29,778 nt of DNA from a virus. Below, piece by piece: positions 7,024 through 23,146 of the stretch (the first letter of the stretch is position 1; each line of letters starts with the position of its first letter). The position numbers were made by a program, and so were the translations under genes. The stretch is from positions 1 through 29,778 of the IMG/VR virus record IMGVR_UViG_3300005957_000010. One strand, given 5' to 3'. Below the pieces are notes generated by a model. That model worked only from the letters and a program-made list of their open reading frames with translations. It was not told the DNA's origin and did not search any database.

Positions 7024-7268
7024 TCGGGGCCCGGAACCTCCTCGCCCTGGACGGGCTCGGCGGGCTCCAGTTCAAGGTTATGAAGAACGCGCGCGGCGTG
7101 ACGCACGTTCGGATCGAGCTGGAGCCCTCCGACACCTACGCCGTGTCCTTCCACAAGGTCACGCGCCGCGGGCTCGAGACCCGCGAGCTGGCGCGCTTCG
7201 AGCGCGTCTACGCGGACAGCCTCCGCCGCATCTTCGAGGCCGAGACGGGCCTCTACCTGAGCCTCTGA
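7014..7268 (+). CDS. Hypothetical phage protein, 84 aa
   Basis: ATG 7014 overlaps the end of the previous gene by ten bases. The protein reads as a small alpha/beta domain (LQFKVMKNARGVTHVRIELE, DTYAVSFHKVTRRG, ADSLRRIFEAETGLYLSL). I recall this general pattern from many phage hypothetical proteins of about this size but know no function. It is not the start of a longer gene, since the frame upstream belongs to a shadow of 6676-7023. Confidence 0.75.
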   Translation: MYMIGARNLLALDGLGGLQFKVMKNARGVTHVRIELEPSDTYAVSFHKVTRRGLETRELARFERVYADSLRRIFEAETGLYLSL

Positions 7269-7288
7269 GCCGAACCCTCACCCCGGGA

Positions 7289-7294
7289 GATACT
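7289..7294 (+). promoter_or_regulatory. Start-proximal -10 hexamer GATACT
   Basis: GGGAGATACTC is a variant of the 11-mer family. GATACT lies six bases before ATG 7301 and about 20 bases after the previous stop. No -35 match. Confidence 0.6.
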
Positions 7295-7300
7295 CTGACC

Positions 7301-7612
7301 ATGGCCTCCACCTTCACGACCTGGAACGGGCCCTCGAGCCTGAGCCGCTACGTTCGCGCCGCCATCGAAGGCCGCGAGACCGACGCCGCCGCCCTCCGCG
7401 AGGAGGCCTACCGCGACGGCTCCACCTGGGGCGAGATCGACCGCGCGCTGTTCGAGGCGCGCCTCCGGCACGAGCGCGAGCGCGGGGACAACCTGGTCCG
7501 GTTCGTCGACGCCGCGATCGACGCCAGCTTCTCGGGCCCGCCCGCGGGGCGCCTCTTCATCGACCCCGTCACGGGCGCGCACGGCTGGGCGTCCCCCCGG
7601 GGGGACGCGTGA
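7301..7612 (+). CDS. Hypothetical protein, 103 aa
   Basis: ATG 7301 follows GATACT by six bases and lacks a Shine-Dalgarno sequence. The protein is alpha-helical in appearance (SLSRYVRAAIEGRETDAAAL; DRALFEARLRHERERGDNLV), ending HGWASPRGDA. No known motif. The stop overlaps the next start by GTGA. Confidence 0.75.
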   Translation: MASTFTTWNGPSSLSRYVRAAIEGRETDAAALREEAYRDGSTWGEIDRALFEARLRHERERGDNLVRFVDAAIDASFSGPPAGRLFIDPVTGAHGWASPRGDA

Positions 7613-7944
7613 GGATCCGGCGCAAGAAGGCGGCCCCGGTGGTCTTCCGGGTCTTCTACAAGGACGCGGGCCCGGATCGGTTCGGCCGGCGGAGCTTCTT
7701 CCTCCACTGGGAGGAGCCCGACGGGGTCTTCCGCCCCGAGCCCTCCATCCTGGACGGGAAGCCGGTCGGCTACCGCCGCGCCCAGGTCTTCTTCACGGTC
7801 CCGGCCGAGTGCTTCGCGAACCTCGAGAGCCGGGGCCACCGCGTCGAGATCGCGACCGAGCCCGACCCCTACGAGGTCGCGGCGGCGCGCCGGCGTGACA
7901 AGCCGACTCGCCCCAAGCGGCGTACCACGACACGAATGTCATAG
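7609..7944 (+). CDS. Hypothetical protein with M-RIRRK start, 111 aa
   Basis: GTG 7609 overlaps the previous stop. It begins with the basic MRIRRKKAAP, then a beta-rich region (VVFRVFYKDAGPDRFGRRSF; RAQVFFTVPAECFANLESRG). The last dozen codons run into the first copy of the five-copy intergenic element, and its TAG stop (7942-7944) lies inside the element's conserved CATAGCG. The tail RRTTTRMS is therefore dictated by the element and may have been added when the element was inserted or copied. No family is recognised. Confidence 0.75.
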   Translation: MRIRRKKAAPVVFRVFYKDAGPDRFGRRSFFLHWEEPDGVFRPEPSILDGKPVGYRRAQVFFTVPAECFANLESRGHRVEIATEPDPYEVAAARRRDKPTRPKRRTTTRMS

Positions 7945-8016
7945 CGCACAACGGAATCAAGCCACTACCCCGCTTGATTCCGTATGGCACAACGTCTGCA
8001 CTAAGAGCCGAGCATG
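7897..8016 (+). repeat. Five-copy intergenic element, copy A
   Basis: Shares with the other copies: GACA-CCGACTCG block (7897-7910), GACACGAATGTCATAGCG (in 7925-7946), an 11-bp stem CGGAATCAAGC / GCTTGATTCCG (7952-7962 and 7972-7982, nine-base loop), and ATGGCACAACGTCTGCAC ending 30 bases later in the start codon at 8014. Unlike the other copies, the upstream ATG (7984) meets TAA after six codons (8002-8004), because CACATAGAC is CACTAAGAG here. Confidence 0.85.
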
Positions 8017-8343
8017 ACCACGATGGACACCACCTGGGCCCCCTGCCCCGCATGCAACGTGACCGTGCTCTTCCCCGACGGCGCCCGCGAGGCGTCGTGT
8101 CGGGGCTGCGGGGCCGATCTGGAAGTGGAGCCGGAGCCGCAGGGTCGCCCCGACCCCACCCCGAACCCCGCGCCCATCATGGAGCGGACGCTGGACCTCG
8201 GGAACAACGAGTCCCTGAGCCAGGGTGTCTTCCCCCAGCACGACGGGCGCTTCCTGGCCCTCACCTTCACCCGGAGCCGCTGGTTCAAGACCGAGCGCGG
8301 CGCCGTGCGCTGGTTGAAGCGCCAGCTCGGGGAGGACGCGTGA
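8014..8343 (+). CDS. Zinc-ribbon protein, 109 aa
   Basis: First gene after element copy A. ATG 8014 is the shared start of the element family, and here the upstream in-frame ATG (7984) cannot be used because of a TAA. Residues 10-32 hold CPAC and CRGC, a short zinc ribbon, followed by an acidic Pro-rich linker (EVEPEPQGRPDPTPNP) and a basic helix (FKTERGAVRWLKRQLGEDA). There is no Shine-Dalgarno sequence. It overlaps the next gene by GTGA. The role is unknown. Confidence 0.8.
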   Translation: MTTMDTTWAPCPACNVTVLFPDGAREASCRGCGADLEVEPEPQGRPDPTPNPAPIMERTLDLGNNESLSQGVFPQHDGRFLALTFTRSRWFKTERGAVRWLKRQLGEDA

Positions 8344-8489
8344 GCCGCGCGGATCGCTGGTTCCGTGTCGAGGTCGACGGCCAGGCCGTGGTCCACGTCA
8401 TCGGCTGGAAGGAAGCCCAACAGGAGCTGAAGGCGGCCAGGAAGCGCTACGGCGCGCGCCGGGTCCGCCTCGTGGAGGAGACGCCGTGA
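8340..8489 (+). CDS. Small hypothetical protein, 49 aa
   Basis: GTG 8340 overlaps the upstream stop and its own stop overlaps the next GTG, so it is held in the cassette by GTGA overlaps at both ends. The sequence (WFRVEVDGQAVVHVIGWKEA then QQELKAARKRYGARRVRLVE) looks like a beta hairpin plus basic helix, the shape of a tiny adaptor or DNA-binding protein. No family is recognised. Confidence 0.7.
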   Translation: MSRADRWFRVEVDGQAVVHVIGWKEAQQELKAARKRYGARRVRLVEETP

Positions 8490-8770
8490 AGCAGAACAGG
8501 ATCCAGAAGGCGGCCGCCAAGGCCATCGCCGCCCACGAGGCGGTTCGGGCGGCCTACCTGATCGCCGCGAAGGCGAACCCCTGGCCCGAGTCCCCGGACT
8601 CGCCGGAGAGCGAGTGGGACGCCCACGACGAGCGCGACGAAGCGATCCGGGCGAGCGGGATGGTGGTCTCCACGAAGGTCACCACGGACCCCCGCGGGGA
8701 CGCCCTGGTCATGGAGGCGGCCCCCGCCTACCTCGAGCGCCTGGAGCGCGCCATCGCCGCGGCGGCGTGA
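8486..8770 (+). CDS. Small hypothetical protein, 94 aa
   Basis: GTG 8486 in a GTGA overlap. Ala-rich helical N-terminus (IQKAAAKAIAAHEAVRAAYL), an acidic middle (SPESEWDAHDERDEAI) and a C-terminal helix (APAYLERLERAIAAAA). No recognised domain. Codon use matches its neighbours. Confidence 0.7.
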   Translation: MKQNRIQKAAAKAIAAHEAVRAAYLIAAKANPWPESPDSPESEWDAHDERDEAIRASGMVVSTKVTTDPRGDALVMEAAPAYLERLERAIAAAA

Positions 8771-8797
8771 GCCGTCCACGAGACGAAGGGAACCGCC

Positions 8798-9031
8798 ATG
8801 CTGCTACCCGGATACGACGACTGGAAGACGACCGAGCCCTACGACTTCGAGCGCGAGCGCGAGGAGGCCGAGCGGGAGGCCATGGAGGAGGCCGAGGAGG
8901 CCCTGGACGCTGCCCTCGACTTCGCCAGCCTCTGCGCCTCCCTGGGGCTCGAGGGCGAGGCGGAGGACCCCTGGGCGGTCTACGAGCGCGAGGTCTGCAA
9001 GGCCCGCTACGTGCGCGGACTGGAGGCGTGA
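8798..9031 (+). CDS. Small acidic hypothetical protein, 77 aa
   Basis: ATG 8798 is preceded by GAAGGGAA as a likely ribosome site, so translation is conventional. Residues 12-45 are very rich in Glu and Arg (DFEREREEAEREAMEEAEEA), predicted to form a single charged helix or coiled coil. The stop TGA shares its last A with the next ATG (TGATG). Function unknown. Confidence 0.75.
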   Translation: MLLPGYDDWKTTEPYDFEREREEAEREAMEEAEEALDAALDFASLCASLGLEGEAEDPWAVYEREVCKARYVRGLEA

Positions 9032-9189
9032 TGCTCGCCGGCGACGACTTCGAGATCGTGAGCTGCCCCGAGTGCTCGTGCGAGGCGTGCGAGCTGGGCG
9101 ATCGGACCCTGGTCCGGTGCCTCGGCTGCGGCTTCGAGTGGCACAGCGACCAAGACGACTGGGACCGGGCGGACGCCCGGATCGACTGA
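9031..9189 (+). CDS. Small zinc-ribbon protein, 52 aa
   Basis: ATG 9031 overlaps the preceding TGA by one base. CPECSCEAC (12-20) and CLGC (31-34) form a compact zinc ribbon, followed by FEWHSDQDDWDRAD, an acidic tail. Many phages encode such tiny ribbons near regulators; the role here is unknown. Confidence 0.7.
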   Translation: MLAGDDFEIVSCPECSCEACELGDRTLVRCLGCGFEWHSDQDDWDRADARID

Positions 9190-9202
9190 AAGCGAGGAGA
9201 GC

Positions 9203-9400
9203 ATGAGTAAGACCATCGTGATCCGGTTCCGGATCGACTTCGACCCCAACGGGCAGGACATCGCCCCGATCGACATCTTCGACAACGTCCTGGACACCGG
9301 GACGATCCAGGACGCGCTCGCGGAGCACGCCGAGGACGAGGGGGTCGAGCTGGCGATCCGGAGCGCCACCGTGGACTTCGAGCCCGGAGACGACGAGTGA
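9203..9400 (+). CDS. Small acidic hypothetical protein, 65 aa
   Basis: ATG 9203 has a clear GAGGAG ribosome site seven bases upstream. The protein alternates beta-like segments (SKTIVIRFRIDFDPNG; GVELAIRSATVDFEPG) and acidic turns, with a calculated strong negative charge at both ends. No family is recognised. The stop overlaps the next GTG. Confidence 0.75.
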   Translation: MSKTIVIRFRIDFDPNGQDIAPIDIFDNVLDTGTIQDALAEHAEDEGVELAIRSATVDFEPGDDE

Positions 9401-9714
9401 CCCGCTACCAGATCTTCGCGCGGACCGAGCCCAGGGGGCCGGCCCACGACACCGCGACCGCGGCCATCCTCTGGGCCCTCGAGCACGTGGAGCCGGGGAC
9501 GTCGTGGGTCTGGGTCCCCGTGACCCCGCGCTACGAGCTGGACAACGGCAGCCCCGGGGATCCGGACCTCATGGAGACCACGCTCGAGACCTTCCTGGCC
9601 GCCAACGACTTCGACCCGGAGACCGCGGCCGCCCTCCGCGGGCTCGAGGTCGGGGCCACCTACCAGGGCGACGAGGGTGCCGGCGGGACCTGGAGCCTCC
9701 GGCGGCTCGAGTAG
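9397..9714 (+). CDS. Hypothetical protein, 105 aa
   Basis: GTG 9397 in a GTGA overlap. Mixed alpha/beta sequence (TRYQIFARTEPRGPAH; SWVWVPVTPRYELDNG; LETFLAANDFDPETAAALRG). No motif is recognised. It is the last gene of the cassette between element copies A and B; the element starts ten bases after its stop. Confidence 0.75.
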   Translation: MTRYQIFARTEPRGPAHDTATAAILWALEHVEPGTSWVWVPVTPRYELDNGSPGDPDLMETTLETFLAANDFDPETAAALRGLEVGATYQGDEGAGGTWSLRRLE

Positions 9715-9723
9715 ACCGGGTGC

Positions 9724-9842
9724 GACAACCCGACTCGCCTCGGCTGCGCACCACGACACGAATGTCATAGCGTCTAGCGGAATCAACCCGGGAACCCGCT
9801 TGATTCCGTATGGCACAACGTCTGCACATAGACCCCAGCATG
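9724..9842 (+). repeat. Five-copy intergenic element, copy B
   Basis: GACAACCCGACTCG (9724-9737), conserved GACACGAATGTCATAGCG (in 9751-9772), stem CGGAATCAA (9778-9786) / TTGATTCCG (9800-9808) with a 13-base loop, and the ATGGCACAACGTCTGC segment from 9810 ending in ATG 9840. The upstream ATG is in frame with the gene and would add MAQRLHIDPS. Confidence 0.85.
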
Positions 9843-10184
9843 ACCACGACGAAGACCGCCATCGCCACCGCCACCGCCCAGGGCATCACCCCCAAGCCCT
9901 TCGGCGGAGCCGGGGGCCACCCCAGCTACCAGACCAACCTCGAGCGGGTCGGCCGCATCGGGCTCGGTCGCAAGGGCTACGGCGCCGGGCAGACCGAGTG
10001 CTGTGCGTTCTGCGGCAAGCTCGCGATCGGCGCGAGCTTCCGGGCCTTCACCCTGACGGGCGCGAGCTTCGACGCGCGGAGCGAGGACCCCGACGCCGTG
10101 GGCTTTTACCCCCTGGGCTCGGACTGCGCGCGCCGCCTGCGCCGCATCGTCCCCGTCTACACCGCCAACGGGGAGCGGGTCTGA
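9840..10184 (+). CDS. Hypothetical protein with CxxC motif, 114 aa
   Basis: Single gene between element copy B and a terminator-like hairpin. I take ATG 9840, at the same place as in copy A; ATG 9810 is in frame and would add ten residues encoded by the element. The body has CCAFCGKLA (about 59-67) and a later SDCARRLRRI, possibly one zinc site or a redox pair. The start MTTTKTAIATATAQ is Thr/Ala-rich and probably disordered. There is no Shine-Dalgarno sequence. Function unknown. Confidence 0.75.
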   Translation: MTTTKTAIATATAQGITPKPFGGAGGHPSYQTNLERVGRIGLGRKGYGAGQTECCAFCGKLAIGASFRAFTLTGASFDARSEDPDAVGFYPLGSDCARRLRRIVPVYTANGERV

Positions 10185-10209
10185 AAATCGACCGAGCCTG
10201 GTCGATTTT
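10184..10209 (+). terminator. Terminator-like hairpin AAAATCGACC / GGTCGATTTT
   Basis: Perfect 10-bp stem (10184-10193 and 10200-10209) with a six-base loop, starting at the last base of the stop codon and ending in TTTTGTCTT. It could terminate in both directions because the arms carry A and T tracts. The next promoter's -35 follows four bases later. Confidence 0.7.
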
Positions 10210-10212
10210 GTC

Positions 10213-10241
10213 TTGACCCCTGGCCATGCGGGTCGTATATA
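10213..10241 (+). promoter_or_regulatory. Sigma-70-type promoter TTGACC-17-TATATA
   Basis: -35 TTGACC (10213-10218), 17 bp, -10 TATATA (10236-10241), preceded by the shared GTCGATTTTGTCTTGAC box and followed by CAGAATCAAGAGACGCGA, which is also found after the 12289 -10. It drives 10280 with a leader and a GAAGGAAGGA ribosome site. Confidence 0.85.
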
Positions 10242-10279
10242 CAGAATCAAGAGACGCGAGCGAAGGAAGGAACGACGCC

Positions 10280-10561
10280 ATGAAGACCGACCCCAAGACC
10301 GGCCGCACCACGAACGAGATCTTCCGCAACGCGAAGGAGCTGGACGACACCATCGCCCGGATCTCCTCGTTCAAGTCGAACGTGGCCCTCCACACCGCGA
10401 TGACCGAGCACGGCTACGTCCCCACGCTCCGCACGGACCACCTGGTCCGCCGCCGCTCGGCGGCCGCGAAGCAGGAGCGCGAGGACGTCCTGAACCTCCG
10501 CGCCTACCTCCGCGCCTACGGCTTCAGGGTCTTCCCCGAGACGGTCCCGGGGGAGCTGTGA
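10280..10561 (+). CDS. Hypothetical protein, 93 aa
   Basis: ATG 10280 is used because a GAAGGAAGGA ribosome site lies just upstream; the in-frame ATG at 10226 lies inside the promoter and is rejected. The protein is basic and helical (NEIFRNAKELDDTIARISSF; RRRSAAAKQEREDVLNLRAY), ending GFRVFPETVPGEL. No family is recognised. The stop overlaps the next gene by GTGA, making a two-gene unit on this promoter. Confidence 0.8.
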   Translation: MKTDPKTGRTTNEIFRNAKELDDTIARISSFKSNVALHTAMTEHGYVPTLRTDHLVRRRSAAAKQEREDVLNLRAYLRAYGFRVFPETVPGEL

Positions 10562-11211
10562 GGATTCGGCGTCGCAAGCCCGTCCCCCTTCTGGGGGGCA
10601 TCGCCCCGGTCTTCAACAGCCCCTACGCCGCCACCGTCCCGGCTCCGGATCCGATGCCCTGGGGATGGCAGGCGGCCCCGGAGCCCACGCTCCTCCGCGT
10701 CCTCGAGCGCGCGGGGTTCGGCGACGCCGAGCGCGTCTACACGGGCCAGCACGCCGCGAGCTTCCGGATCCGGCGCGGCGACACCGCGCTCTTCGTGGTC
10801 TGGTACCACGGAGGAGGGTTCAGCCTGGGATCGATCGGGGACAAGCTCCCGACGAAGCTGGTGGAGGCGATCGTCGCGTTCGTGAACGGGGCCGAGGGCG
10901 AGCCGATCGATCCCCGCCCCGGGTTCTACTACGTCAGCGCGATCGACGGGCCCCGGCGCTCCATGGTCCGCGGACCCTTCCCGACGCACGCCGAGGCGCT
11001 GGAGCGCGTGGAGGCGACGCGCCGGCTCGTGGAGGAGCGCGACCCTCGCGCCCACTGGTACGCCTGGGGAACGGCGAGGAGCGAGACCGACCTGGGGAAG
11101 GGGGTCCTGGACCGTTGGGAAGCCGAGCGCGAGGCCGGCCGTCCCGAGCCCGTCACGGAGCGCGAGGCCGGCGCGCTCGAGGGGGAGGCGGACAGCTACG
11201 AGCTGGGCTGA
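10558..11211 (+). CDS. Hypothetical protein with M-RIRRR start, 217 aa
   Basis: GTG 10558 overlaps the upstream stop. It starts MRIRRRKPVPLL, one of five such basic starts in the window. Two folded parts can be guessed: residues 45-115 (VLERAGFGDAERVYTGQHAA; DTALFVVWYHGGGFSLGSIG), and residues 120-185, with FYYVSAIDGPRRSMVRGPF and an ALERVEATRRLVEERDPRAH helix, a pattern I have seen in phage hypothetical proteins. The C-terminus is acidic. The function is unknown. The longer frame from 10213 is rejected because it begins in the promoter. The TGA stop is part of the next GGCTGATACTC. Confidence 0.8.
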   Translation: MRIRRRKPVPLLGGIAPVFNSPYAATVPAPDPMPWGWQAAPEPTLLRVLERAGFGDAERVYTGQHAASFRIRRGDTALFVVWYHGGGFSLGSIGDKLPTKLVEAIVAFVNGAEGEPIDPRPGFYYVSAIDGPRRSMVRGPFPTHAEALERVEATRRLVEERDPRAHWYAWGTARSETDLGKGVLDRWEAEREAGRPEPVTEREAGALEGEADSYELG

Positions 11212-11216
11212 TACTC
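11206..11216 (+). promoter_or_regulatory. Leaderless-type promoter element GGCTGATACTC
   Basis: Exact 11-mer. GATACT (11210-11215) is six bases before ATG 11222, and the TGA inside is the upstream stop codon. No -35 match. Confidence 0.65.
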
Positions 11217-11221
11217 CCGGC

Positions 11222-11920
11222 ATGAACCCCGCCGAGAGCGTCCTGGGCGTCCTCCTGACTGAGCCGAAGATCCGGGCCGTGGTCCGCGCCTCCCCCTCGG
11301 GGAGCGGCCTCCGCGTCCGGGTCTACACGCCGGAGGGCCGAGAGATCCTGAACCTCCGCGCCTCCGAGGTCGAGCGGACGGTGATCGAGGTCCCGACCTT
11401 CGCTCCGGGGAACCTCCCGGTGAGCCTGGGCCTGGCCAAGTTCCCCGGCGCGGTCTGGTTCTACGGGCCCCGGGGCGAGACGATCGGCTTCCTTCCCGAT
11501 GCCGTCCTCCCGGACCTGGCGCGCCCTGGGGCCGTCGAGCGTCCGCCGCAAGGTCCCACGAGCCCTCGGACGCTGGAGGGTCTCCAAGAGGCGCTGGCGG
11601 CCGTCCTCGGGGGGCTCGACAACCTGGCGACCTACCTCGAGACACGAGCCCGCCGATCCGGCGACCTCGAGCGCTCGCGCCGAGCCGCGCACGCGATCAA
11701 GTCCCTGACCTCCTGGACTCGAGCGCGATACGAGGATCCCGGGATCCGGGCCATGGTCGCCAACGCGGCCCACGATGCCCTCGAGCGGCTTCTGGACTTG
11801 GCTCGAGGCCCGGCGGGGACCGAGGAGAGCCGAGCGGCCGCGCTCCGCTTCGAGCCCGTGGCCGAGCTGTCCCGCATCGTCCGGGACCGCGAGAACGAAG
11901 CCCACGCCCGGACCCTGTAG
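11222..11920 (+). CDS. Hypothetical protein, 232 aa
   Basis: ATG 11222 follows GATACT by six bases. The N-terminal 95 residues look like a beta-rich domain (GLRVRVYTPEGREILNLRAS; FPGAVWFYGPRGETIGFLP), followed by a Pro-rich hinge (PPQGPTSPRTLEG) and a long helical half (LEGLQEALAAVLGGLDNLAT; DLERSRRAAHAIKSLTSWTR) rich in Leu, Ala and Arg. No recognised motif. It is the last gene before element copy C. Confidence 0.8.
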   Translation: MNPAESVLGVLLTEPKIRAVVRASPSGSGLRVRVYTPEGREILNLRASEVERTVIEVPTFAPGNLPVSLGLAKFPGAVWFYGPRGETIGFLPDAVLPDLARPGAVERPPQGPTSPRTLEGLQEALAAVLGGLDNLATYLETRARRSGDLERSRRAAHAIKSLTSWTRARYEDPGIRAMVANAAHDALERLLDLARGPAGTEESRAAALRFEPVAELSRIVRDRENEAHARTL

Positions 11921-11923
11921 TGC

Positions 11924-12043
11924 GCCAGACCGACTCGATCCTCTAGTCGCACCACGACACGAATGTCATAGCGTCTAGCGGAATCAAGCCACTACCCGGC
12001 TTGATTCCGTATGGCACGGCGTCTGCACATAGACCCGAGCATG
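11924..12043 (+). repeat. Five-copy intergenic element, copy C
   Basis: ACCGACTCG (11929-11937), GACACGAATGTCATAGCG (in 11952-11973), and the longest stem of the family: CGGAATCAAGCC (11979-11990) / GGCTTGATTCCG (11998-12009), 12 bp with a seven-base loop. The segment from ATG 12011 reads GGCACGGCGTCTGC and ends in ATG 12041. The upstream ATG is in frame and would give MARRLHIDPS. Confidence 0.85.
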
Positions 12044-12238
12044 AACACGCTGACGAACATCGAGGATCGGGCGCGCACCATGACGGACGCGGAGCTGTGG
12101 CACTCCCGCATGGACGCGGTGAAGACCGCCGAGGCCATGGACGCGCTGGACCGCGTCGACGACCTGGACCGCGCGGGCCGCTACCGCGACGAGGCCGGGA
12201 TCTACTGGACCGAGCTGAAGCGCCGCGGCGCGCGCTGA
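12041..12238 (+). CDS. Small hypothetical protein, 65 aa
   Basis: Single gene between element copy C and the second terminator-promoter junction, the same arrangement as 9840-10184. ATG 12041 is taken; ATG 12011, in frame, would add ten element-encoded residues. The protein is helical and charged (NIEDRARTMTDAELWHSRMD; ALDRVDDLDRAGRYRDEAGI). No family is recognised. Its TGA stop supplies the first A of the following hairpin. Confidence 0.75.
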   Translation: MNTLTNIEDRARTMTDAELWHSRMDAVKTAEAMDALDRVDDLDRAGRYRDEAGIYWTELKRRGAR

Positions 12239-12262
12239 AAATCGAGGGGGTCTGTCGATTTT
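12238..12262 (+). terminator. Terminator-like hairpin AAAATCGA / TCGATTTT
   Basis: An 8-bp perfect stem (12238-12245 and 12255-12262) with a nine-base loop, beginning in the stop codon and ending in TTTTGACTT. Same design as 10184-10209, but the loop sequence differs, so the arms are conserved and the loop is not. Confidence 0.65.
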
Positions 12263-12265
12263 GAC

Positions 12266-12294
12266 TTGACCCCCTGCCTAGCAGGCCGTATATA
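12266..12294 (+). promoter_or_regulatory. Sigma-70-type promoter TTGACC-17-TATATA
   Basis: -35 TTGACC (12266-12271), 17 bp, -10 TATATA (12289-12294), followed by CAGAATCAAGAGACGCGA. The spacer (CCCTGCCTAGCAGGCCG) has diverged from the 10213 promoter, while the -35 box, the -10 and the initial transcribed region are kept. Confidence 0.85.
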
Positions 12295-12331
12295 CAGAAT
12301 CAAGAGACGCGAACGAGACGAGGAGAGAACG

Positions 12332-12901
12332 ATGGCCCGCACCTACCACCACCACAACCGCGCTTCTTCGGCCCGCTACTGGAACAAGGAAGCGAAGCCC
12401 GCGCGCAAGGCCACGACTCGCGCCCTCCGCCGCGCGAACGCAGAGCTGGAGCGCGCCGCGCGCGTCTCCCCCGTCGACGTCGACGCGATCGCCCTCCCGG
12501 TCCTCCGCGGGACGCTCTTCCTGAACCTGAACAACGTCAACGCCCGGGCCCTCCTGGCCCTCCTCGGCTGGGCGGCCGCGCCCTCCAGGATCCCCCTCGG
12601 GGAGATCCGGGTCGGGGAGCCCACCGGGGAGTTCGACCTCTGGGGCGAGCGCACGCTCCCCGACGCGCGCCGCGCCGTCATGGTCGCGCGGGCGACCTTC
12701 GATCGCCGCGTCTCGGCGCTCGTGCGCGAGGACGACTGCGGCGCCCCGCGCGTGCGCGAGGACGGGGCCGTGGAGATGCGCCCTGTTCGGGTCCAGTCCT
12801 TCGGGCTCGACGCGGAGGGTCTCCGGGACCGCCTCGAGTCCTTCGCCGCCCTCGTGGAGGAGGGCGGCACCCTCGGGGCCGTCAAGGTCACCTGGGGGTG
12901 A
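12332..12901 (+). CDS. Hypothetical protein, 189 aa
   Basis: ATG 12332 has GAGGAGAG seven bases upstream. The N-terminus is basic and His-rich (MARTYHHHNRASSARYW; KPARKATTRALRRANAELER). The middle shows LRGTLFLNLNNVNARALLAL and a Gly/Leu-rich stretch, and the C-terminus has beta-like segments ending GTLGAVKVTWG. No enzyme motif is recognised. The only gene between its promoter (12266) and the following stem-loop. Confidence 0.8.
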   Translation: MARTYHHHNRASSARYWNKEAKPARKATTRALRRANAELERAARVSPVDVDAIALPVLRGTLFLNLNNVNARALLALLGWAAAPSRIPLGEIRVGEPTGEFDLWGERTLPDARRAVMVARATFDRRVSALVREDDCGAPRVREDGAVEMRPVRVQSFGLDAEGLRDRLESFAALVEEGGTLGAVKVTWG

Positions 12902-12925
12902 GCCGAAAAGTGGACCCCGCACGCG

Positions 12926-12948
12926 GGCCCTGGAACGCTGCCAGGGCC
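12926..12948 (+). other. Stem-loop GGCCCTGG / CCAGGGCC
   Basis: Perfect 8-bp GC-rich stem with a seven-base loop between the stop at 12901 and the ribosome site of 12965. No T tract follows, so it is more likely an mRNA processing or stability structure, or a weak factor-dependent stop, than a rho-independent terminator. Confidence 0.5.
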
Positions 12949-12964
12949 GACGAAAGGAGCCCCC

Positions 12965-13192
12965 GTGAAGCTGAGCCGCGACCTTCGGACCGTCCTCTCG
13001 AACCTCTCCACGCATGAGGATCGGGGGACGCACGCCAAGGGTATCAACCCGACGATCAAGACCCTGGAGCGCCGGGGTCTCATCGAGCTGAAGCTCCGGT
13101 CCCCCTCGGATCCGGACTGGCTCGCCTGCCCCTACTTCGGGTGGGGGCTGACCCCCAACGGGCGCGCCGCGCTCGGGAAGGCCTGGAACTAG
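12965..13192 (+). CDS. Small winged-helix-like protein, 75 aa
   Basis: GTG 12965 has GAAAGGAG upstream. The sequence RDLRTVLSNLSTHED, NPTIKTLERRGLIELKL and GWGLTPNGRAALGKAW has the spacing of a winged helix: a recognition-helix-like TIKTLERRGLIEL, then a wing, then LTPNGRAAL, which recalls the LTxxGR ending of MarR/PadR-type domains. The assignment is by pattern only. It would be a small DNA-binding regulator. Its TAG stop directly abuts the next ATG. Confidence 0.7.
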   Translation: MKLSRDLRTVLSNLSTHEDRGTHAKGINPTIKTLERRGLIELKLRSPSDPDWLACPYFGWGLTPNGRAALGKAWN

Positions 13193-13648
13193 ATGAGCAC
13201 GACCGATACCCCTCCGACCCTGGCCGAGGTCCGCTCCGGGCTCGAGGACTTCGCGCTCGAGGCTGCGCCGGCGCGCGAGGTTTTCGCCGGGCGCCTCGAG
13301 CCGGACCCCAACGGATCGAGCTGGGGCTGGGACAGTCTCCGGCGGAAGATCCGGCAGGCGATCGAGGCCATGGAGACCGGGGTCTCGGCCTGGTCCGCCG
13401 ACGTCCAGATCCTCGAGCCGGCACCTTCCGACGTCCAGGAGGCCGTCCGGCTGTACGAAGCCCTCCGGCGCGCCATCACCGCCGCGGACTTCCTGGTCTA
13501 CGGCGCGGCCAACGTCCCGGGCTCCACGAGCGTCGACGTCGACGCGTTCCGGGAGCGAGTCCTCGACAAGCGGGACGCCATGAAGGCGCTCCGCGCGCGC
13601 ATGGAGACCTACGCGGACGACTATCCGGCCGTCGCGGTCCGCCCGTGA
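13193..13648 (+). CDS. Hypothetical protein, 151 aa
   Basis: ATG 13193 immediately follows the preceding TAG. Predominantly helical (LAEVRSGLEDFALEAAPARE; SLRRKIRQAIEAMETGVSAW; RLYEALRRAITAADFLVYGA), with a C-terminal MKALRARMETYADDYP helix. No recognised family. Overlaps the next gene by GTGA. Confidence 0.75.
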   Translation: MSTTDTPPTLAEVRSGLEDFALEAAPAREVFAGRLEPDPNGSSWGWDSLRRKIRQAIEAMETGVSAWSADVQILEPAPSDVQEAVRLYEALRRAITAADFLVYGAANVPGSTSVDVDAFRERVLDKRDAMKALRARMETYADDYPAVAVRP

Positions 13649-14049
13649 AGATCCGGCGACGTCGCCGCCCGCTCCTCCGCCCCCTGAAGAAGTGGACGAA
13701 GGGCGCGATCCGGGAGATGACCGGCGCCCTGGACGGCTTCGTCCTGAACCTCGAGCTGTACCGCCCGCTCGCTGCCATCGGGCACGTCATCGAGACGAAG
13801 CGCCTGGAGGTCGTCCGGGTCTACCTCCAGGACCACCGCCGGATGTTCGTCGACCGGGTGAAGCAGAACCGGGCGACCGCGCTCCACTACCGCGACCACT
13901 TCCGGGACCTCGAGACCTTCCAGCGCTTCGAGGGCTACGCCCGGGAGGCCTGGATCAAGGCGCTCCGGATCGCCCAGATCCTGAAGAAGCTCGAGACCGA
14001 GCCCCTTCCTCCGGAGGTCGTGGACTACAAGCCGGTGAGGTTCCGATGA
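13645..14049 (+). CDS. Hypothetical basic protein with M-KIRRR start, 134 aa
   Basis: GTG 13645 in a GTGA overlap. It starts MKIRRRRRPLLRPLKKW, the most basic of the five M-[KR]IRR starts. The rest is helical with many aromatic and basic residues (RVYLQDHRRMFVDRVKQNRA; DHFRDLETFQRFEGYAREAW; ALRIAQILKKLETEPLPP). A nucleic-acid-binding role would fit the charge but no family is recognised. The ORF extending back to 13141 is rejected, as it runs through two other genes. Confidence 0.75.
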   Translation: MKIRRRRRPLLRPLKKWTKGAIREMTGALDGFVLNLELYRPLAAIGHVIETKRLEVVRVYLQDHRRMFVDRVKQNRATALHYRDHFRDLETFQRFEGYAREAWIKALRIAQILKKLETEPLPPEVVDYKPVRFR

Positions 14050-14408
14050 CCCGCAAGCGCTCCGGGCTCCCCTCCGATCTGCGCGCCCTCCTGGAGCGGG
14101 CCGCCGACGCGCTCGGGGGCTCGCCCCTGGCCGCGGAGCTGCGGGAAGCTGCCGCGGGTCCTCTTCCGATCGCAGGCCGCTCCGAGGCCGTACGCGAGGC
14201 GAGCATCGCACGCGCGCGCCTCCGGGAGAGCCAACTCCGGGAGGCTGCGCTCGAGGAAGCGATCCGGACCGCCATCGAGCGGATCGATCGCCCGGACCTG
14301 ACCGACTACGACCCGAAGGATCTCCGACCGCACCACTTCCGGACCGTGAGCCGAGCGGCCGCCGTGCTCGAGACCGCCATCGGGCGCGAACCCCGGTGGA
14401 AGGACTGA
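14046..14408 (+). CDS. Hypothetical protein, 120 aa
   Basis: ATG 14046 in an ATGA overlap. Arg/Ala/Glu-rich helices (LRALLERAADALGGSPLAAE; SIARARLRESQLREAALEEA) suggest a coiled coil. No family is recognised. Last gene of the cassette before element copy D, whose first conserved block begins one base after the stop. Confidence 0.75.
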   Translation: MTRKRSGLPSDLRALLERAADALGGSPLAAELREAAAGPLPIAGRSEAVREASIARARLRESQLREAALEEAIRTAIERIDRPDLTDYDPKDLRPHHFRTVSRAAAVLETAIGREPRWKD

Positions 14409-14409
14409 G

Positions 14410-14527
14410 ACAACCCGACTCGTCCCGGCGTCGCACCACGACACGAATGTCATAGCGTCTAGCGGAATCAACCCGGGAACCCGCTTGATTCCGTATGGCA
14501 CGACGTCTGCACATAGACCCCAGCATG
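14410..14527 (+). repeat. Five-copy intergenic element, copy D
   Basis: GACAACCCGACTCG (14410-14423), GACACGAATGTCATAGCG (in 14437-14458), stem CGGAATCAA (14463-14471) / TTGATTCCG (14485-14493) with the same loop as copy B, and the segment from ATG 14495 (GGCACGACGTCTGC) to ATG 14525. Copies B and D are the closest pair. The upstream ATG is in frame (MARRLHIDPS). Confidence 0.85.
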
Positions 14528-14884
14528 AGCACGACGCAGAACACGGGCTGGAACCTCTTGGACTTCGACACCGCCGGCTGGGCGGACCTCACCCCCACCG
14601 CGGGCGATCGCATCGTCGCCGTCTACGGGATCGGCTGCGGCGAGGCCTTCGGGCGCCTCGTTCGCCAGGAGACGACCCGCTGGGGAACCCACTGGGTCGT
14701 CCGCATGGACGACGGGACCGAGACCACCTTCCACGGCAGCTACCGCGGGCGCGCGCTGGCGACCCCCTACCGTGGAGGAACACCCTCGAGCGACCCCGTC
14801 CTACACCACGAGACCAAGGGGATCGGGACCTACGTCGTCCGCGCGGCGGCCCACTACTCGCCCTTCCCCGGCGCGGACTACTGA
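14525..14884 (+). CDS. Hypothetical protein, 119 aa
   Basis: ATG 14525 at the standard place after element copy D; ATG 14495 in frame would add ten residues. The protein is Gly/Thr-rich and beta-like (DRIVAVYGIGCGEAFGRLV; GTHWVVRMDDGTETTFHGSY), ending HYSPFPGADY, possibly a small barrel. No family is recognised. Its TGA lies next to a TAGCGT hexamer for the following gene. Confidence 0.75.
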   Translation: MSTTQNTGWNLLDFDTAGWADLTPTAGDRIVAVYGIGCGEAFGRLVRQETTRWGTHWVVRMDDGTETTFHGSYRGRALATPYRGGTPSSDPVLHHETKGIGTYVVRAAAHYSPFPGADY

Positions 14885-14890
14885 TAGCGT
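14885..14890 (+). promoter_or_regulatory. Start-proximal -10 hexamer TAGCGT
   Basis: CTGATAGCGT overlaps the TGA stop at 14882-14884. The TANNNT hexamer is seven bases before GTG 14898. A weaker relative of the CTGATACT family. Confidence 0.4.
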
Positions 14891-14897
14891 GGGCTTC

Positions 14898-15068
14898 GTG
14901 AAACTTCCGCCTCCTCCGCTCGTCCCCAACTTCCCCACCCCGGAGGAGGCCCAGGCGAGTCTGATCGCCAAGTGGGGCCGCGAGGTACACGAACGTCTAG
15001 AACGCCCCACCTTGCCGGCTCGGCCGAGGGGACTATCGCCCGCGGCCGTTCCGGCTGATACTCGGTAA
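14898..15068 (+). CDS. Small Pro-rich hypothetical protein, 56 aa
   Basis: GTG 14898 lies seven bases after TAGCGT. The protein (KLPPPPLVPNFPTPEEAQAS; IAKWGREVHERLERP) has a Pro-rich start and one amphipathic helix. Its 3' end encodes PADTR across the GGCTGATACTC element, so the element here lies inside coding sequence rather than at a stop. Codon use is acceptable, but the gene is short and no family is recognised. Confidence 0.55.
   Translation: MKLPPPPLVPNFPTPEEAQASLIAKWGREVHERLERPTLPARPRGLSPAAVPADTR
15053..15063 (+). promoter_or_regulatory. Leaderless-type promoter element GGCTGATACTC
   Basis: Exact 11-mer lying within the last codons of 14898-15068 in a different reading phase from the stop-codon cases. 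GATACT (15057-15062) is eight bases before ATG 15071. Confidence 0.6.
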
Positions 15069-15070
15069 CC

Positions 15071-15595
15071 ATGAGCGATCTCCGGAAGCGCGTGCGTGGG
15101 ACGAACGATCCCATCAACCCCGAGTTCCCCGAAGGCCGCTGGCAGGACGCCCTCCGTCGGATGCAGCGCCGGATCGCCGCGGGCCTCCCGCTACGGCTCG
15201 AGGACTCGGACGCCATCGGCGAGAAGCGGACGAGCGCGAGCTGGGGGATGTGCTCCGGCGACCGCGAACAGTGGCCGGAGCCGGACGACCACGTCTTCCC
15301 CGAGGCCTTCGTCCGGGACGGGCGCGTGGCCCCCCGCGACCCGCCGGACGGCGCGCGCTGTCCGATGGACCTCGCGGACCCCGAGGACCTCACCAGCTCG
15401 GTCCTCGGGCACTACGGATGCTTCTACCGCTGCCTCCTCTTCCAGGCCCCGGAGCCGCTGCGACGCGAGCCGGAGCGCCTCCGGCTTCGCGTCCTCCAGC
15501 GCTTCGAGGAGTCCCTGGCCGAGCGCGAGACCGCCAACGGCTCCCGATCGACCGAGATGGAGCCCTGGACGGAGGTCGCCGGCGCCGCCGAGTAA
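15071..15595 (+). CDS. Hypothetical phage protein with conserved Cys, 174 aa
   Basis: ATG 15071 follows GATACT by eight bases. Four cysteines are spread through the middle (SWGMCSGDRE, ARCPMDLAD, GHYGCFYRCLLF), a spacing compatible with one structural zinc or two disulfides. The pattern WGMCSGD...CPMD...GCFYRC is familiar from phage hypothetical proteins, but I know no function. The stop lies in a short CCGAG/CTCGG hairpin at the next promoter. Confidence 0.75.
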   Translation: MSDLRKRVRGTNDPINPEFPEGRWQDALRRMQRRIAAGLPLRLEDSDAIGEKRTSASWGMCSGDREQWPEPDDHVFPEAFVRDGRVAPRDPPDGARCPMDLADPEDLTSSVLGHYGCFYRCLLFQAPEPLRREPERLRLRVLQRFEESLAERETANGSRSTEMEPWTEVAGAAE

Positions 15596-15613
15596 GCCTC
15601 GGTCGATTTTGCC

Positions 15614-15642
15614 TTGACACCTCGCACGTCAAGGCGTAAAAC
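15614..15642 (+). promoter_or_regulatory. Sigma-70-type promoter TTGACA-17-TAAAAC
   Basis: -35 TTGACA (15614-15619), 17 bp, TAAAAC (15637-15642), with the shared GTCGATTTTGCCTTGAC box just upstream and AGAATCAAG just downstream. Upstream, CCGAG (15588-15592) pairs with CTCGG (15598-15602) around the TAA stop, a shorter hairpin than at the two sister sites. Confidence 0.8.
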
Positions 15643-15684
15643 AGAATCAAGCGCGCGCCAACGCGCTAGAAAGGGGTGCGAGTC

Positions 15685-16227
15685 ATGACGAAGGGAACCA
15701 GGTACGTCGAGATCCCCGCCGAGAGGCTGGTCTCGGAGCTGGAGGGGATCGGGCTGAAGGTCCGGGAGCGCGGCGGCGACTTCGCCTGGCGCGTCCAGGG
15801 CCGCGAACAGGTCTTCGACCTCACGGTCCCGGGGGCTGCGGCCCAGGTCCGGATCTTCACCACGCTGGACGGCGCCGCGACGGCGCGCGGCTGCGGCGAG
15901 GACGCGATCCGGGTCTGCGTCGGCGGGCTCGAGAAGGAGCGCGACGACTTCGGCGAGACCGGCAAGCTCCGCTTCCGCCCCACGGAGAAGGGGATCAAGA
16001 TCCTCCGGACGGCGCCCCACGGGGTCGCGGATCGCGTCGCCACCTTCCTCGAGCGCCTTCGGGGCGCGGTCCGGGAGGCCTACGTGCGCGCGCGCGAGGT
16101 CCGCCCCTGCCCCGACTGCGGGCGCGCCATGGCCCGGCGCGAGGGGAAGTTCGGGCCGTTCCTCGGCTGCACGAGCTACCCCGAGTGCAAGAAGATCGTG
16201 AACCTCCCGCGGGCGGCGGCGTCGTGA
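15685..16227 (+). CDS. Protein with topoisomerase-type C4 zinc ribbon, 180 aa
   Basis: ATG 15685 has GAAAGGGG about ten bases upstream; a GTG nine bases earlier is in frame but would place the ribosome site inside the gene. Residues 142-168 form the C4 ribbon found at the end of type IA topoisomerases: CPDC, then GKFGPFLGC, then YPEC. The N-terminal 130 residues contain no topoisomerase catalytic domain and I do not recognise them. The ribbon binds single-stranded DNA in topoisomerases, so a DNA-binding role is likely. Overlaps the next gene by GTGA. Confidence 0.8.
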   Translation: MTKGTRYVEIPAERLVSELEGIGLKVRERGGDFAWRVQGREQVFDLTVPGAAAQVRIFTTLDGAATARGCGEDAIRVCVGGLEKERDDFGETGKLRFRPTEKGIKILRTAPHGVADRVATFLERLRGAVREAYVRAREVRPCPDCGRAMARREGKFGPFLGCTSYPECKKIVNLPRAAAS

Positions 16228-16481
16228 CGGACGCCGAGGTCGAGAAGGTCATGGAGACGCTACGCCCCCACCTCCGGCGGGCTACCGACCGCATCACGAC
16301 CGAGGTCAACGCCGCGTTCGAGGTCGCCCTGGCCCCGGCGAAGGGGCTCGGGCTCCTCCCGCTCACCCTCGGGGGCGGGCTCCTCGGGCGGCGGGTCTAC
16401 AACCCCTTCCTGCCCTGGGGCATCGAGGCCCGGTGCGGGCTCGACCACTTCGGGCGCGACCTGAAGCCGGCGAACGCGTAG
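16224..16481 (+). CDS. Small hypothetical protein, 85 aa
   Basis: GTG 16224 in a GTGA overlap. An N-terminal amphipathic helix (AEVEKVMETLRPHLRRATDR) is followed by a Gly/Leu-rich hydrophobic stretch (GLGLLPLTLGGGLLG), too short and Gly-rich to call a membrane segment with confidence, and a C-terminal CGLDHFGRDLKP. No family is recognised. Confidence 0.7.
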   Translation: MTDAEVEKVMETLRPHLRRATDRITTEVNAAFEVALAPAKGLGLLPLTLGGGLLGRRVYNPFLPWGIEARCGLDHFGRDLKPANA

Positions 16482-16484
16482 CGC

Positions 16485-17261
16485 ATGGAGCGGATGAGCT
16501 GGGACGAATGGGTCGCGTTCCAGGAGCGCTTCCCGGCGCTCTCGCGACGCTTCGCGAAGCAACCCCCCCGCCAGGCCCCCGCCCCGCCGGCGCCGGCGCC
16601 ACCCCGCTACGACACGCGCCCCGCCCGCGCGCGCCGAGCCTGGACCGAGGAGGAGGATCGGATCCTCGCGAACCACTGGGGGACGACCCTCCCCCGGATC
16701 GCGAAGCTCCTGGACCGCTCCCCGGATGCGCTCCGCGCCCGCGCCGAGAAGCTGGGCCTCGGCCCTCCGCGCCACGGGCTCGAGGCGATCACCCTCCGGC
16801 GGTTCGCCGCGATGTCCGGGTTCAGCACGACGAAGATCCGGCACGCGGCCGGCGCGCTCGGGATCAAGCTCCGCCATGCGCCCGCGGGAAGGCCGCGCCG
16901 CCGCCGCGCGAAGTCGAAGGTCTACGCCGTCACCCCCGGCCAGACCGAGCGGATCCTGGCCCTCATGCTCGAGGGCGGCTTCATTGGGCGCTCGAGGTCG
17001 TGGGATGGCCGCGAGCCCCCCGCGTGCGTCGTTTGCGGCGGCACGGACCGCCCCCACAAGGCCAAGGGGGCGTGCTCGCGCTGCTACAGCACGGCCGCGA
17101 CGCGGAAGGCTCGAGGGCTACGCCGAAGCAACGTCGGCCCGCCAGCGGACCGGGTTCATGAGGACGAAGAAGTCCGGGGCCAGCTTCTGGAGCTGGAGCC
17201 CGGGGTCGCCCGGGGAGATCTCGAGGGTGACGGGTCGCCGGGCGGCGAGCCGGAGCTGTAG
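16485..17261 (+). CDS. SANT/GcrA-like DNA-binding protein with zinc ribbon, 258 aa
   Basis: ATG 16485 lies three bases after the previous stop. After a Pro/Ala-rich linker, residues 52-92 carry a Myb/SANT- or GcrA-like helix set beginning WTEEEDRILANHWG and ending ALRARAEKLGL. A second helical part (TLRRFAAMSGFSTTKIRHAA) and a zinc ribbon CVVC...CSRC (181-200) follow. It is probably a DNA-binding regulator. The last 47 residues, from about 212 on, are antisense to the minus-strand gene 17118-17330 and are Gly/Glu-rich and unlike a folded domain. The gene may once have ended near residue 210. Confidence 0.8.
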   Translation: MERMSWDEWVAFQERFPALSRRFAKQPPRQAPAPPAPAPPRYDTRPARARRAWTEEEDRILANHWGTTLPRIAKLLDRSPDALRARAEKLGLGPPRHGLEAITLRRFAAMSGFSTTKIRHAAGALGIKLRHAPAGRPRRRRAKSKVYAVTPGQTERILALMLEGGFIGRSRSWDGREPPACVVCGGTDRPHKAKGACSRCYSTAATRKARGLRRSNVGPPADRVHEDEEVRGQLLELEPGVARGDLEGDGSPGGEPEL

Positions 17262-17330
17262 CTCGCACAGCTCCGGGTGGTCTTCGCGCTGGCCGACGAG
17301 AGTCCGACCGCAGTGGGGGCAACGCTGCAT
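17118..17330 (-). CDS. Minus-strand Cys-containing small protein, 70 aa
   Basis: The only minus-strand gene I accept. It has the phage's preferred codons throughout on this strand (CTC, GTC, GAG, ATC, CGG, TTC), whereas the + frame opposite it has poorer usage. ATG at 17330 is preceded by AGGAAGAAGG at a normal ribosome-site distance. The protein begins MQRCPHCGRTLVGQ with a CPHC knuckle, then EDHPELCELQ, a second metal ligand set, then PGDPGLQLQKLAPDFFVLMN and WRADVA. It is a probable zinc-finger protein of unknown role. It overlaps the end of the SANT-like gene tail to tail by 144 bases. A TTGACA promoter is oriented toward it. Confidence 0.7.
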   Translation of the reverse strand: MQRCPHCGRTLVGQREDHPELCELQLRLAARRPVTLEISPGDPGLQLQKLAPDFFVLMNPVRWRADVASA

Positions 17331-17384
17331 GATGGGCCTTCTTCCTACGGGCCCGGGGTCCGTCACGTGGAGGTCATGCGCGCC

Positions 17385-17412
17385 ATGGTGAACCCGATCC
17401 TCCGAATGTCAA
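17385..17412 (-). promoter_or_regulatory. Minus-strand sigma-70-type promoter TTGACA-16-CACCAT
   Basis: On the minus strand, TTGACA (17407-17412), 16 bp, CACCAT (17385-17390), directed at the gene starting at 17330. The -35 is perfect but the -10 is weak (3 of 6). It lies just outside element copy E. Confidence 0.45.
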
Positions 17413-17431
17413 GCCGTAGATCGCCCCGTGT

Positions 17432-17539
17432 GACACAACGACTCGACCACGACACGAATGTCATAGCGCCAAGCGCCACGCATATCAAAATCCTTCTTGA
17501 TTGCGTATGGCACAACGTCTGCACATAGACCCGAGCATG
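17432..17539 (+). repeat. Five-copy intergenic element, copy E
   Basis: The most divergent copy. ACGACTCG (17438-17445), GACACGAATGTCATAGCG (in 17447-17468), stem CGCATATCAA (17479-17488) / TTGATTGCG (17497-17505) and the segment from ATG 17507 to ATG 17537. The stem bases differ from the other copies but still pair, apart from one bulged T. The start segment is unchanged. The upstream ATG is in frame (MAQRLHIDPS). Confidence 0.85.
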
Positions 17540-17668
17540 ACCATCGAGAGCATGAGGAAGGCGATCCTGGAGAACCTGGCGCGGTACGAAGCCGCGGGCG
17601 ACGAGCGCGCCGCGCGAGCTGCGCGCGTCATGCTGGAGCGCCTGGACGCGATGACGGTGGCGAAGTGA
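17537..17668 (+). CDS. Small helical hypothetical protein, 43 aa
   Basis: ATG 17537 at the element's standard start; ATG 17507 in frame would give 53 residues. The product (ESMRKAILENLARYEAAGDE; AARAARVMLERLDAMTVAK) looks like a helical hairpin. It overlaps the next gene by GTGA. Its reality is supported by the element upstream, the overlap and the codon use. Function unknown. Confidence 0.65.
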   Translation: MTIESMRKAILENLARYEAAGDERAARAARVMLERLDAMTVAK

Positions 17669-18054
17669 CCTGCCCCCACTGCAACCGCTGGGGGGACGAG
17701 TGCAAGCCGGCGCAGTGCGAGGGCTGCGGGACCTGGCAGTGCTTCAGCAACGGGACCTGCAAGGTCTGCCTCTACGGCCACCTCTCGGGCTGGTCCAAGG
17801 GCTTCATGGACGGGAAGACGTGCGGCTACAAGGGCTGCGATCGCGAGGCCGTCTTCTTCGGCCTCCCCCGGGTGAAGCGCTGCTGCGCCGAGTGCGCTCC
17901 CCGCGTGAAGATCCGGATCGGGTTCGGGCAGAACCGCGAGACCGAACCCCTCGACGTGTTCGTGCGCCGCATGGCGGACCCCAACGCTCGACACGCGCGA
18001 AGCTACCGACGAGAGACCTACGCCGAGTGGGTGGAAAGGAACCGAGGACGATGA
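17665..18054 (+). CDS. Cys-rich zinc protein, 129 aa
   Basis: GTG 17665 in a GTGA overlap; the longer frame from 17497 is rejected because it crosses element copy E. The first 80 residues hold about fourteen cysteines (CPHC, CKPAQCEGC, CFSNGTCKVC, CGYKGC, CCAEC) with two histidines, enough for several zinc sites in a treble-clef or RING-like arrangement. The C-terminus is basic (FVRRMADPNARHARSYRRE). Possibly protein- or RNA-binding; I cannot assign a family. Confidence 0.8.
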   Translation: MTCPHCNRWGDECKPAQCEGCGTWQCFSNGTCKVCLYGHLSGWSKGFMDGKTCGYKGCDREAVFFGLPRVKRCCAECAPRVKIRIGFGQNRETEPLDVFVRRMADPNARHARSYRRETYAEWVERNRGR

Positions 18055-18199: not shown

Positions 18200-18783
18200 C
18201 GCAGGGCCGCTGCGTCCCTTGCGGGACCGCCTACCGCTGGAGCGGCGCCCCGCTCCTGAAGGACGCCGCCTGCCCCCGGTGCGCGCGTCCCCTCGAGAGG
18301 ACGACGCAACACCTGAAGCGGGCGATCTGGAAGGACGAGACCCCCCGCCTCCGGAAGACCGACGGGAAGGGCTACCTCTCGGCCGGCGACGCCCGCGAGG
18401 CCGCCGCCATCGTGCGCGAACGCGTCTACCCCCTGGCCGAGGCGCTGAAGGGCTCCGGGCTCGAGGTCATCACGGGCTTCGGGAAGCACGCCGTCACCCT
18501 CGCCGCACGCCGGCGCGCCCCCCAGGAGGCGATCGACGCCTACCTGAAGGTCACGACCTGTTCCCACGACCCGAACCGCGACTTCTTCCACACCGCCAAG
18601 GCCTGGATCACCACCCCGACCGAGGAGGAGGTGGATCGCGTCCTCGCCGCCGTCCTGGGCCACGTCTCCAGGGACATCGACCCCCGGAGCACGTCCAGCT
18701 ACAGCGGGGGCGACTGGGTACGGAACAACCCCAACAACGTCGAGAAGGGCCGGGAGATCCTGGCCCAGATCGCAAACGCTTGA
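18196..18783 (+). CDS. Zinc-ribbon protein, 195 aa
   Basis: GTG 18196 overlaps the upstream stop by GTGA and is chosen over ATG 18124, which would cover 18062-18199. Residues 6-31 form a zinc ribbon (CVPC, CPRC). The body is alpha/beta: RKTDGKGYLSAGDAREAAAI, LKGSGLEVITGFGKHAVTLA, FHTAKAWITTPTEEEVDRVL, then a Ser/Asn-rich stretch. No known family. Its TGA is part of the -35 of the next promoter. Confidence 0.8.
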   Translation: MTQGRCVPCGTAYRWSGAPLLKDAACPRCARPLERTTQHLKRAIWKDETPRLRKTDGKGYLSAGDAREAAAIVRERVYPLAEALKGSGLEVITGFGKHAVTLAARRRAPQEAIDAYLKVTTCSHDPNRDFFHTAKAWITTPTEEEVDRVLAAVLGHVSRDIDPRSTSSYSGGDWVRNNPNNVEKGREILAQIANA

Positions 18784-18808
18784 CGCGTCGCCGTTCGCGA
18801 CGCATAAC
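18780..18808 (+). promoter_or_regulatory. Sigma-70-type promoter TTGACG-17-CATAAC with inverted repeat
   Basis: -35 TTGACG (18780-18785) uses the TGA stop of the previous gene; 17 bp; -10 CATAAC (18803-18808). An inverted repeat GCGTCG (18785-18790) / CGACGC (18798-18803) fills the spacer, as an operator would. It serves the ribbon-helix-helix gene 18831, which has GAAGGGAG before its ATG. Confidence 0.7.
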
Positions 18809-23118: not shown

Positions 23119-23146
23119 TTGACACCGCGCTATGCGGATTCATACT
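23119..23146 (+). promoter_or_regulatory. Sigma-70-type promoter TTGACA-16-CATACT, leaderless
   Basis: TTGACA (23119-23124), 16 bp, CATACT (23141-23146), then only six bases to ATG 23153. It combines the shared GTCGATTTTGTCTTGAC box with the start-proximal -10 placement, so it links promoter classes 1 and 2 and supports reading GATACT elsewhere as a -10. Confidence 0.8.

Follow-up and report, generated by a model that had tools for sequence, protein, structure and literature searches.

Most phages are thought to depend on the housekeeping sigma factor of the host or on a polymerase of their own, and host sigma-54 acts only while a sensor of stress or nutrients is switched on. The described systems closest to the locus reported here are the sigma-54 (RpoN) promoters, which have TGGCAC and TGC at -24 and -12 in exact spacing, activator-like dyads upstream and a regulatory site between, and for which the consensus TGGCAC-N5-7-TTGCT has been given (PMC12316311). 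Our locus shares this arrangement; it differs from RpoN promoters in that it is phage-borne in at least five copies, that its predicted start lies almost at the ATG and that an inverted site lies directly against the -24 box. A second likeness is to lambda-type operators and the stoperators of mycobacteriophages, in which a short asymmetric site likewise stands at many promoters and overlaps polymerase contacts. However, the candidate operator described here would serve both sigma-70-like and sigma-54-like promoters, and its inverted pair occurs only in the sigma-54-like ones. The third likeness is to moron-type accessory cassettes, which also place small ORFs under separate promoters between other phage genes, whereas here the promoter is sigma-54-like and one cassette recurs at no fewer than five sites. 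A description of sigma-54 promoters in phages was not found in the open-access literature text.

The window, by which we mean the whole stretch of 29,778 nucleotides that was analysed (IMG/VR record IMGVR_UViG_3300005957_000010), contains a repeated stem that is one part of an element of approximately 100 bases. Five copies of the element occur in the window, all on the plus strand, and one occurs in a phage contig, L007, a 10.6-kb IMG/VR record that has only the element in common with the window. Each copy begins with a GACA-N4-TGTC dyad, which lies within a 23-bp block that is invariant in the alignment, ACCACGACACGAATGTCATAGCG, and continues with the stem, a TA, TATGGCAC-N5-CTGCA and an ATG at a constant distance. 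Copy A (7924-8016) has its block at 7924-7946, its arms at 7952-7960 and 7974-7982, TGGCAC-N5-CTGCA at 7985-8000 and its ATG at 8014. The corresponding positions for the block, the two arms, the -24/-12 core and the ATG are 9750-9772, 9778-9786 and 9800-9808, 9811-9826 and 9840 in copy B (9750-9842); 11951-11973, 11979-11987 and 12001-12009, 12012-12027 and 12041 in copy C (11951-12043); 14435-14457, 14463-14471 and 14485-14493, 14496-14511 and 14525 in copy D (14435-14527); and 17446-17468, 17479-17488 and 17497-17505, 17508-17523 and 17537 in copy E (17446-17539). Counted from the T of TGGCAC, the ATG follows at 29 nt in every window copy and at 28 nt in L007, where the core reads TGGCAT AGCGT CTGCA. 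We think it reasonably likely that the element is a sigma-54-type promoter cassette with an enhancer and a regulator-binding dyad, sigma-54 being the core of this combined reading.

The preliminary description concerned the stem alone and claimed that copy E carries a compensatory change. Its letters and coordinates are correct. Copies A (7952-7982), B (9778-9808), C (11979-12009) and D (14463-14493) all have CGGAATCAA pairing with TTGATTCCG. The dyad of copy E (17479-17505, plus strand) is CGCA[T]ATCAA paired with TTGATTGCG, in which the G-to-C change on the left is matched by a C-to-G change on the right; its left arm, CGCATATCAA, occupies 17479-17488, where the T at position 17483 is bulged, and its right arm occupies 17497-17505. 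The spacer from ATCAA to TTGAT is 8 nt in E instead of the 13 nt of A-D and L007. It had further been argued that the paired structure itself is maintained, in RNA or as a dyad in DNA. A maintained dyad is borne out, as the dyad is present in six of six copies and every copy folds better than its dinucleotide shuffles (z-scores of -3.3 to -6.9 as DNA, and similar as RNA); the further step, that pairing as such is selected, is not established by a single compensatory event with P of about 0.05 and adjacent pairs that change on one side.

The covariation evidence from copy E is weak. Among the six known copies, a single change affects both members of one of the nine core pairs, and the sixth copy, L007, adds no change in these pairs. 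When one random substitution and one insertion were placed in the left arm of E, the nine pairs with the right arm of E survived in 4.6% of trials. Furthermore, the five window copies are not independent witnesses, because B does not differ from D anywhere in the stem-loop and A differs little from C there. Template switching within an inverted repeat can copy an arm and thereby produce a matched change without selection, and a copied-arm mutation of this kind could be the source of the change in E. The pairs adjacent to the nine core pairs show one-sided changes. At the innermost flanking position on the left, copies A, C and L007 carry G and copies B and D carry C opposite an unchanged C, and the right side of the innermost flanking pair carries a C-to-T change in L007; at the outermost flanking pair, copies A, E and L007 have A-T and copies B-D have G/T. 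Pattern scans of IMG/VR, some with patterns that included the arms or the adjoining -24 box, and a survey of portal relatives yielded L007 as the only additional homologue, and a covariance model search of 16 viral records and 7 host genomes found no further copy of the full element. A terminase search found nothing, and L006 was rejected as a copy because the match is a chance one within an ORF.

The alternative that survives best is that the hairpin itself is functional, as RNA or as cruciform DNA kept by selection for pairing, for example to insulate against or terminate read-through from upstream; we regard it as unlikely. The good folding of all copies, the loop letters that vary among them and the matched double change in E, which comes with the additional outer pairs GCCA/TGGC, speak for such a function, but the compensatory event is single and the pairs beside the arms change on one side only. 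An insulating role would suit copies A-D, in which the upstream ORF stops just before or inside the element, but copy E sits after a minus-strand ORF, where a read-through terminator is not needed, and an intrinsic terminator was rejected at every copy for want of a T-run after the stem on the plus strand. The stem also has no match to an Rfam family, so a curated RNA family was rejected as well, and the predicted start lies downstream of the stem, which would leave the stem absent from the element's own transcript. Of the two possibilities in the earlier wording, the DNA dyad is favoured and the RNA structure disfavoured.

The distribution of the arm sequence bears on the same question. The window contains 11 instances of the heptamer GAATCAA, where 0.83 would be expected; eight of them are the arms of A-D, and the other three lie unpaired at sigma-70-like promoters, just downstream of the -10 at +1. 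These promoters, picked by eye on the plus strand, are TTGACC-N17-TATATA followed by ATACAGAATCAAG at 10213-10251 (site at 10239-10251) and again at 12266-12304 (site at 12292-12304), and TTGACA-N17-TAAAAC followed by AAACAGAATCAAG at 15614-15651 (site at 15639-15651); a strict consensus scan reported no sigma-70 promoter in 7000-18000. On the minus strand, the right arm of the element reads ATACGGAATCAAG, with ATACGCAATCAAG in E and ATACGGAATCAAA in L007. With up to two mismatches, ATACRSAATCAAG occurs 10 times in the window against 0.2 expected, and nine of these occurrences are in the sigma-54-like and sigma-70-like promoters described here. The right-hand site of the element, CTTGATTCCGTAT, overlaps the -24 box, and the same 13-bp site, reversed, overlaps the -10/+1 region of the three sigma-70-like promoters; a repressor would be expected at such positions. 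One short site thus stands at several promoters and is rare elsewhere, as in phage operator families. Pairing alone does not predict an arm that is conserved and unpaired at three promoters, and because the 13-bp site is common to both promoter classes, a DNA operator is favoured over an RNA structure.

The reading of the stem as an operator dyad is moderately supported, and we lean slightly towards it. The stem, at approximately -59 to -29, would be an inverted pair of sites for a DNA-binding regulator, in which the left-hand copy is inverted, less strict and 13 bp from the right-hand site (8 bp in E); the hairpin would be made up of both sites. The most likely candidate for this regulator is a phage repressor, which would block the polymerase at both promoter classes; at the element, it would act from the right-hand site with help from the left-hand one. 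The shift of 5 bp in the dyad spacing of E is odd for rigid dimer binding. The left arm of E is displaced by 5 bp, yet the spacing between the block and the right arm varies by no more than 1 bp (49, 49, 49, 49 and 50 bp in A-E and 49 bp in L007, counted by hand), a pattern consistent with proteins touching the DNA at two points. The locus also illustrates that matched substitutions in a recurring stem can be a sign of a DNA operator instead of an RNA fold.

Several observations concern the sigma-70-like promoters themselves. Those at 10213, 12266, 15614 and 23119 are preceded by GTCGATTTTGNC, and at 23119 the ATG is a few bases from the -10, so that this gene may be leaderless too. Another sigma-70-like promoter, at 18780-18808, contains GCGTCGC...GCGACGC, an inverted repeat of 7 bp, within its spacer (P of about 0.008 against shuffles), and the small ORF downstream of it may encode a ribbon-helix-helix DNA-binding protein, a judgement by eye with no Pfam match. 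Spacer inverted repeats were rejected as a feature of these promoters, as only one of five is beyond chance.

The assignment to sigma-54 rests on the core and the upstream dyad. All six copies match TGGCAY-N5-CTGC at the exact -24/-12 spacing, and they depart from the sigma-54 consensus (YTGGCAC-N5-TTGCW, with GG at -24 and GC at -12) in having C instead of T at -15 and A at -27. In the 29.8-kb window, TGGCAY-N6-TGC occurs five times and GACA-N4-TGTC, the predicted activator site, also occurs five times, in both cases once per element and against 0.17 expected. Use of sigma-54 by the element is well supported by these matches and is, in our view, very probable. A host enhancer-binding protein would bind the GACA-N4-TGTC of the 23-bp block, centred near -76, sigma-54 RNA polymerase would bind TGGCAC-N5-CTGCA at -24/-12, and the activator on the enhancer would open the polymerase at the core. 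Transcription would then start approximately 3 nt before the conserved ATG and give a nearly leaderless mRNA of a small accessory gene.

It is improbable that the element instead belongs to another system, for example as an operator or promoter for the phage's own sigma-70 region-4 protein. The phage does encode a Sigma70_r4 protein (ORF 5954-6478, E-value 1.4e-11), but the element has no -35/-10 pair at the right place, and the exact -24/-12 spacing in six copies argues against a system other than sigma-54. Moreover, in unrelated phages the same enhancer dyad stands before textbook TTGGCAC...TTGC cores, and it is because of these associations that we read the element as an enhancer with a promoter. 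The ORF at 5954-6478 contains Sigma-70 region 4 and no other sigma domain, and it has a sigma-70-like promoter of its own at 5893.

We consider it slightly less probable still that IHF, or a nucleoid protein like it, binds and bends the DNA at the dyad, between the enhancer and the sigma-54 core. The IHF consensus is WATCAANNNNTTR, with the core WATCAA. The dyad does occupy the usual position of an IHF-type bend, between the enhancer and the -24 box, and its arms contain WATCAA; however, the TTR half is missing after every WATCAA in the arms, as read from the listed sites, and WATCAA also stands at +1 of the sigma-70-like promoters, where no bend is needed. An IHF-assisted sigma-54 promoter was rejected because WATCAANNNNTTR is not found between the activator site and the core.

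The element, which we continue to read as a probable sigma-54-type cassette, stands before at least five small genes of this phage, all on the plus strand. The ORF downstream of copy A (8014-8343) has a DUF1391 domain. The ORFs downstream of copies B (9840-10184, 114 aa), C (12041-12238, 65 aa) and D (14525-14884, 119 aa) have no Pfam match, and the ORF downstream of copy E (17537-17668) has 43 aa and a stop that overlaps the GTG of a zinc-ribbon-like ORF. That the conserved TATGGCACAACGTCTGCAC is a coding 5′ end (MAQRLHIDPS) and the element a mobile gene start, or that the frame is a leader peptide, is scarcely credible, because the frame, although it runs on into the gene without a stop in copies B-E, is stopped in two of the six copies, A (MAQRLH*) and L007 (MA*). 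Elsewhere in the window, a NADAR-domain protein (E-value 5e-24) is encoded at 2182-2715, near the window start and before the structural genes.

Because a search for genes of enhancer-binding proteins (PF00158) gave no hit in the window or among 18 other phage records, which are fragments, whereas 14 of 14 control genomes score, the activator is presumably host-borne; we consider a host-encoded activator likely. Relatives of the portal protein are found mainly in MAGs of Myxococcota and Deltaproteobacteria, at approximately 50-57% identity, and these point to a myxobacterium as the probable host. Myxococcota are rich in enhancer-binding proteins (PMC12316311). If several phage genes hang on host sigma-54, the phage could read the state of its host. 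RtcR, considered because the L112 site has an RNA ligase and a tRNA in its vicinity, was rejected as the activator because the region upstream of E. coli rtcBA has a sigma-54 core but no TGACA-N4-TGTCA.

In unrelated phage records, tandem TGACA-N4-TGTCA dyads lie upstream of TTGGCAC-N5-NTGC. A search for the dyad-plus-core pattern returned 26 viral stretches, which, after duplicates were removed and two loci from the phylum Myxococcota were added, gave 23 distinct loci, and six of the 23 have at least two dyads within 150 bp. These six have the consensus Y at -27 in five cases and the consensus W at -11 in five cases, and neither position was in the search pattern. L098 is a further dyad-plus-core case. 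L100, an unrelated 43-kb phage record found via the 23-bp block and also matched by the covariance model, has five GACA-N4-TGTC in a row upstream of TATGGCACGAGTCTTGCT, and its nearest dyad starts 60 bp from the core, compared with 57 bp in the window. Across fourteen records, GACA-N4-TGTC occurs 65 times and the reversed pattern 11 times, a contrast that is inflated because 13 of the records were chosen for the dyad. Four of 377 genomes of the phylum Myxococcota contain the dyad-plus-core pattern, whereas none contains the reversed control. The other phages that share the enhancer lack the stem dyad, and the stem is thus not general to the class.

We put forward tentatively, as a possibility that falls somewhat short of an even chance, that these loci belong to a widespread, undescribed phage promoter class that borrows one host sigma-54 enhancer-binding protein recognising TGACA-N4-TGTCA, and that the present phage has also wired this class to a phage repressor through an operator shared with sigma-70 promoters. 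If true, phages of many GC contents would time their own genes via one host enhancer-binding protein. An enhancer dyad common to unrelated phage records also offers a sequence with which the activator could be sought and the prevalence of the arrangement gauged.

The individual records differ in layout. One or more dyads lie upstream of a sigma-54-like core in L098, L100, L111, L112 (the same site as in L122 and L124), L113, L120 and L125 (the same site as in L126), and single-dyad cases are L110, L114, L115, L119, L129, L133 and L134, the last two being genomes of the phylum Myxococcota. At L100:1949-2150, two diverging sigma-54-like cores flank the tandem dyads, with TTGGCACGGTTCTCGCT on the minus strand and TATGGCACGAGTCTTGCT on the plus strand. 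The RNA ligase and tRNA gene of L112 are near its site, the first downstream gene of L120 has a weak Sigma70_r2 match, and dnaK and dnaJ lie downstream of the dyad and core in L114. The phage and phage-like records with a dyad and core range in GC content from approximately 28 to 66%.
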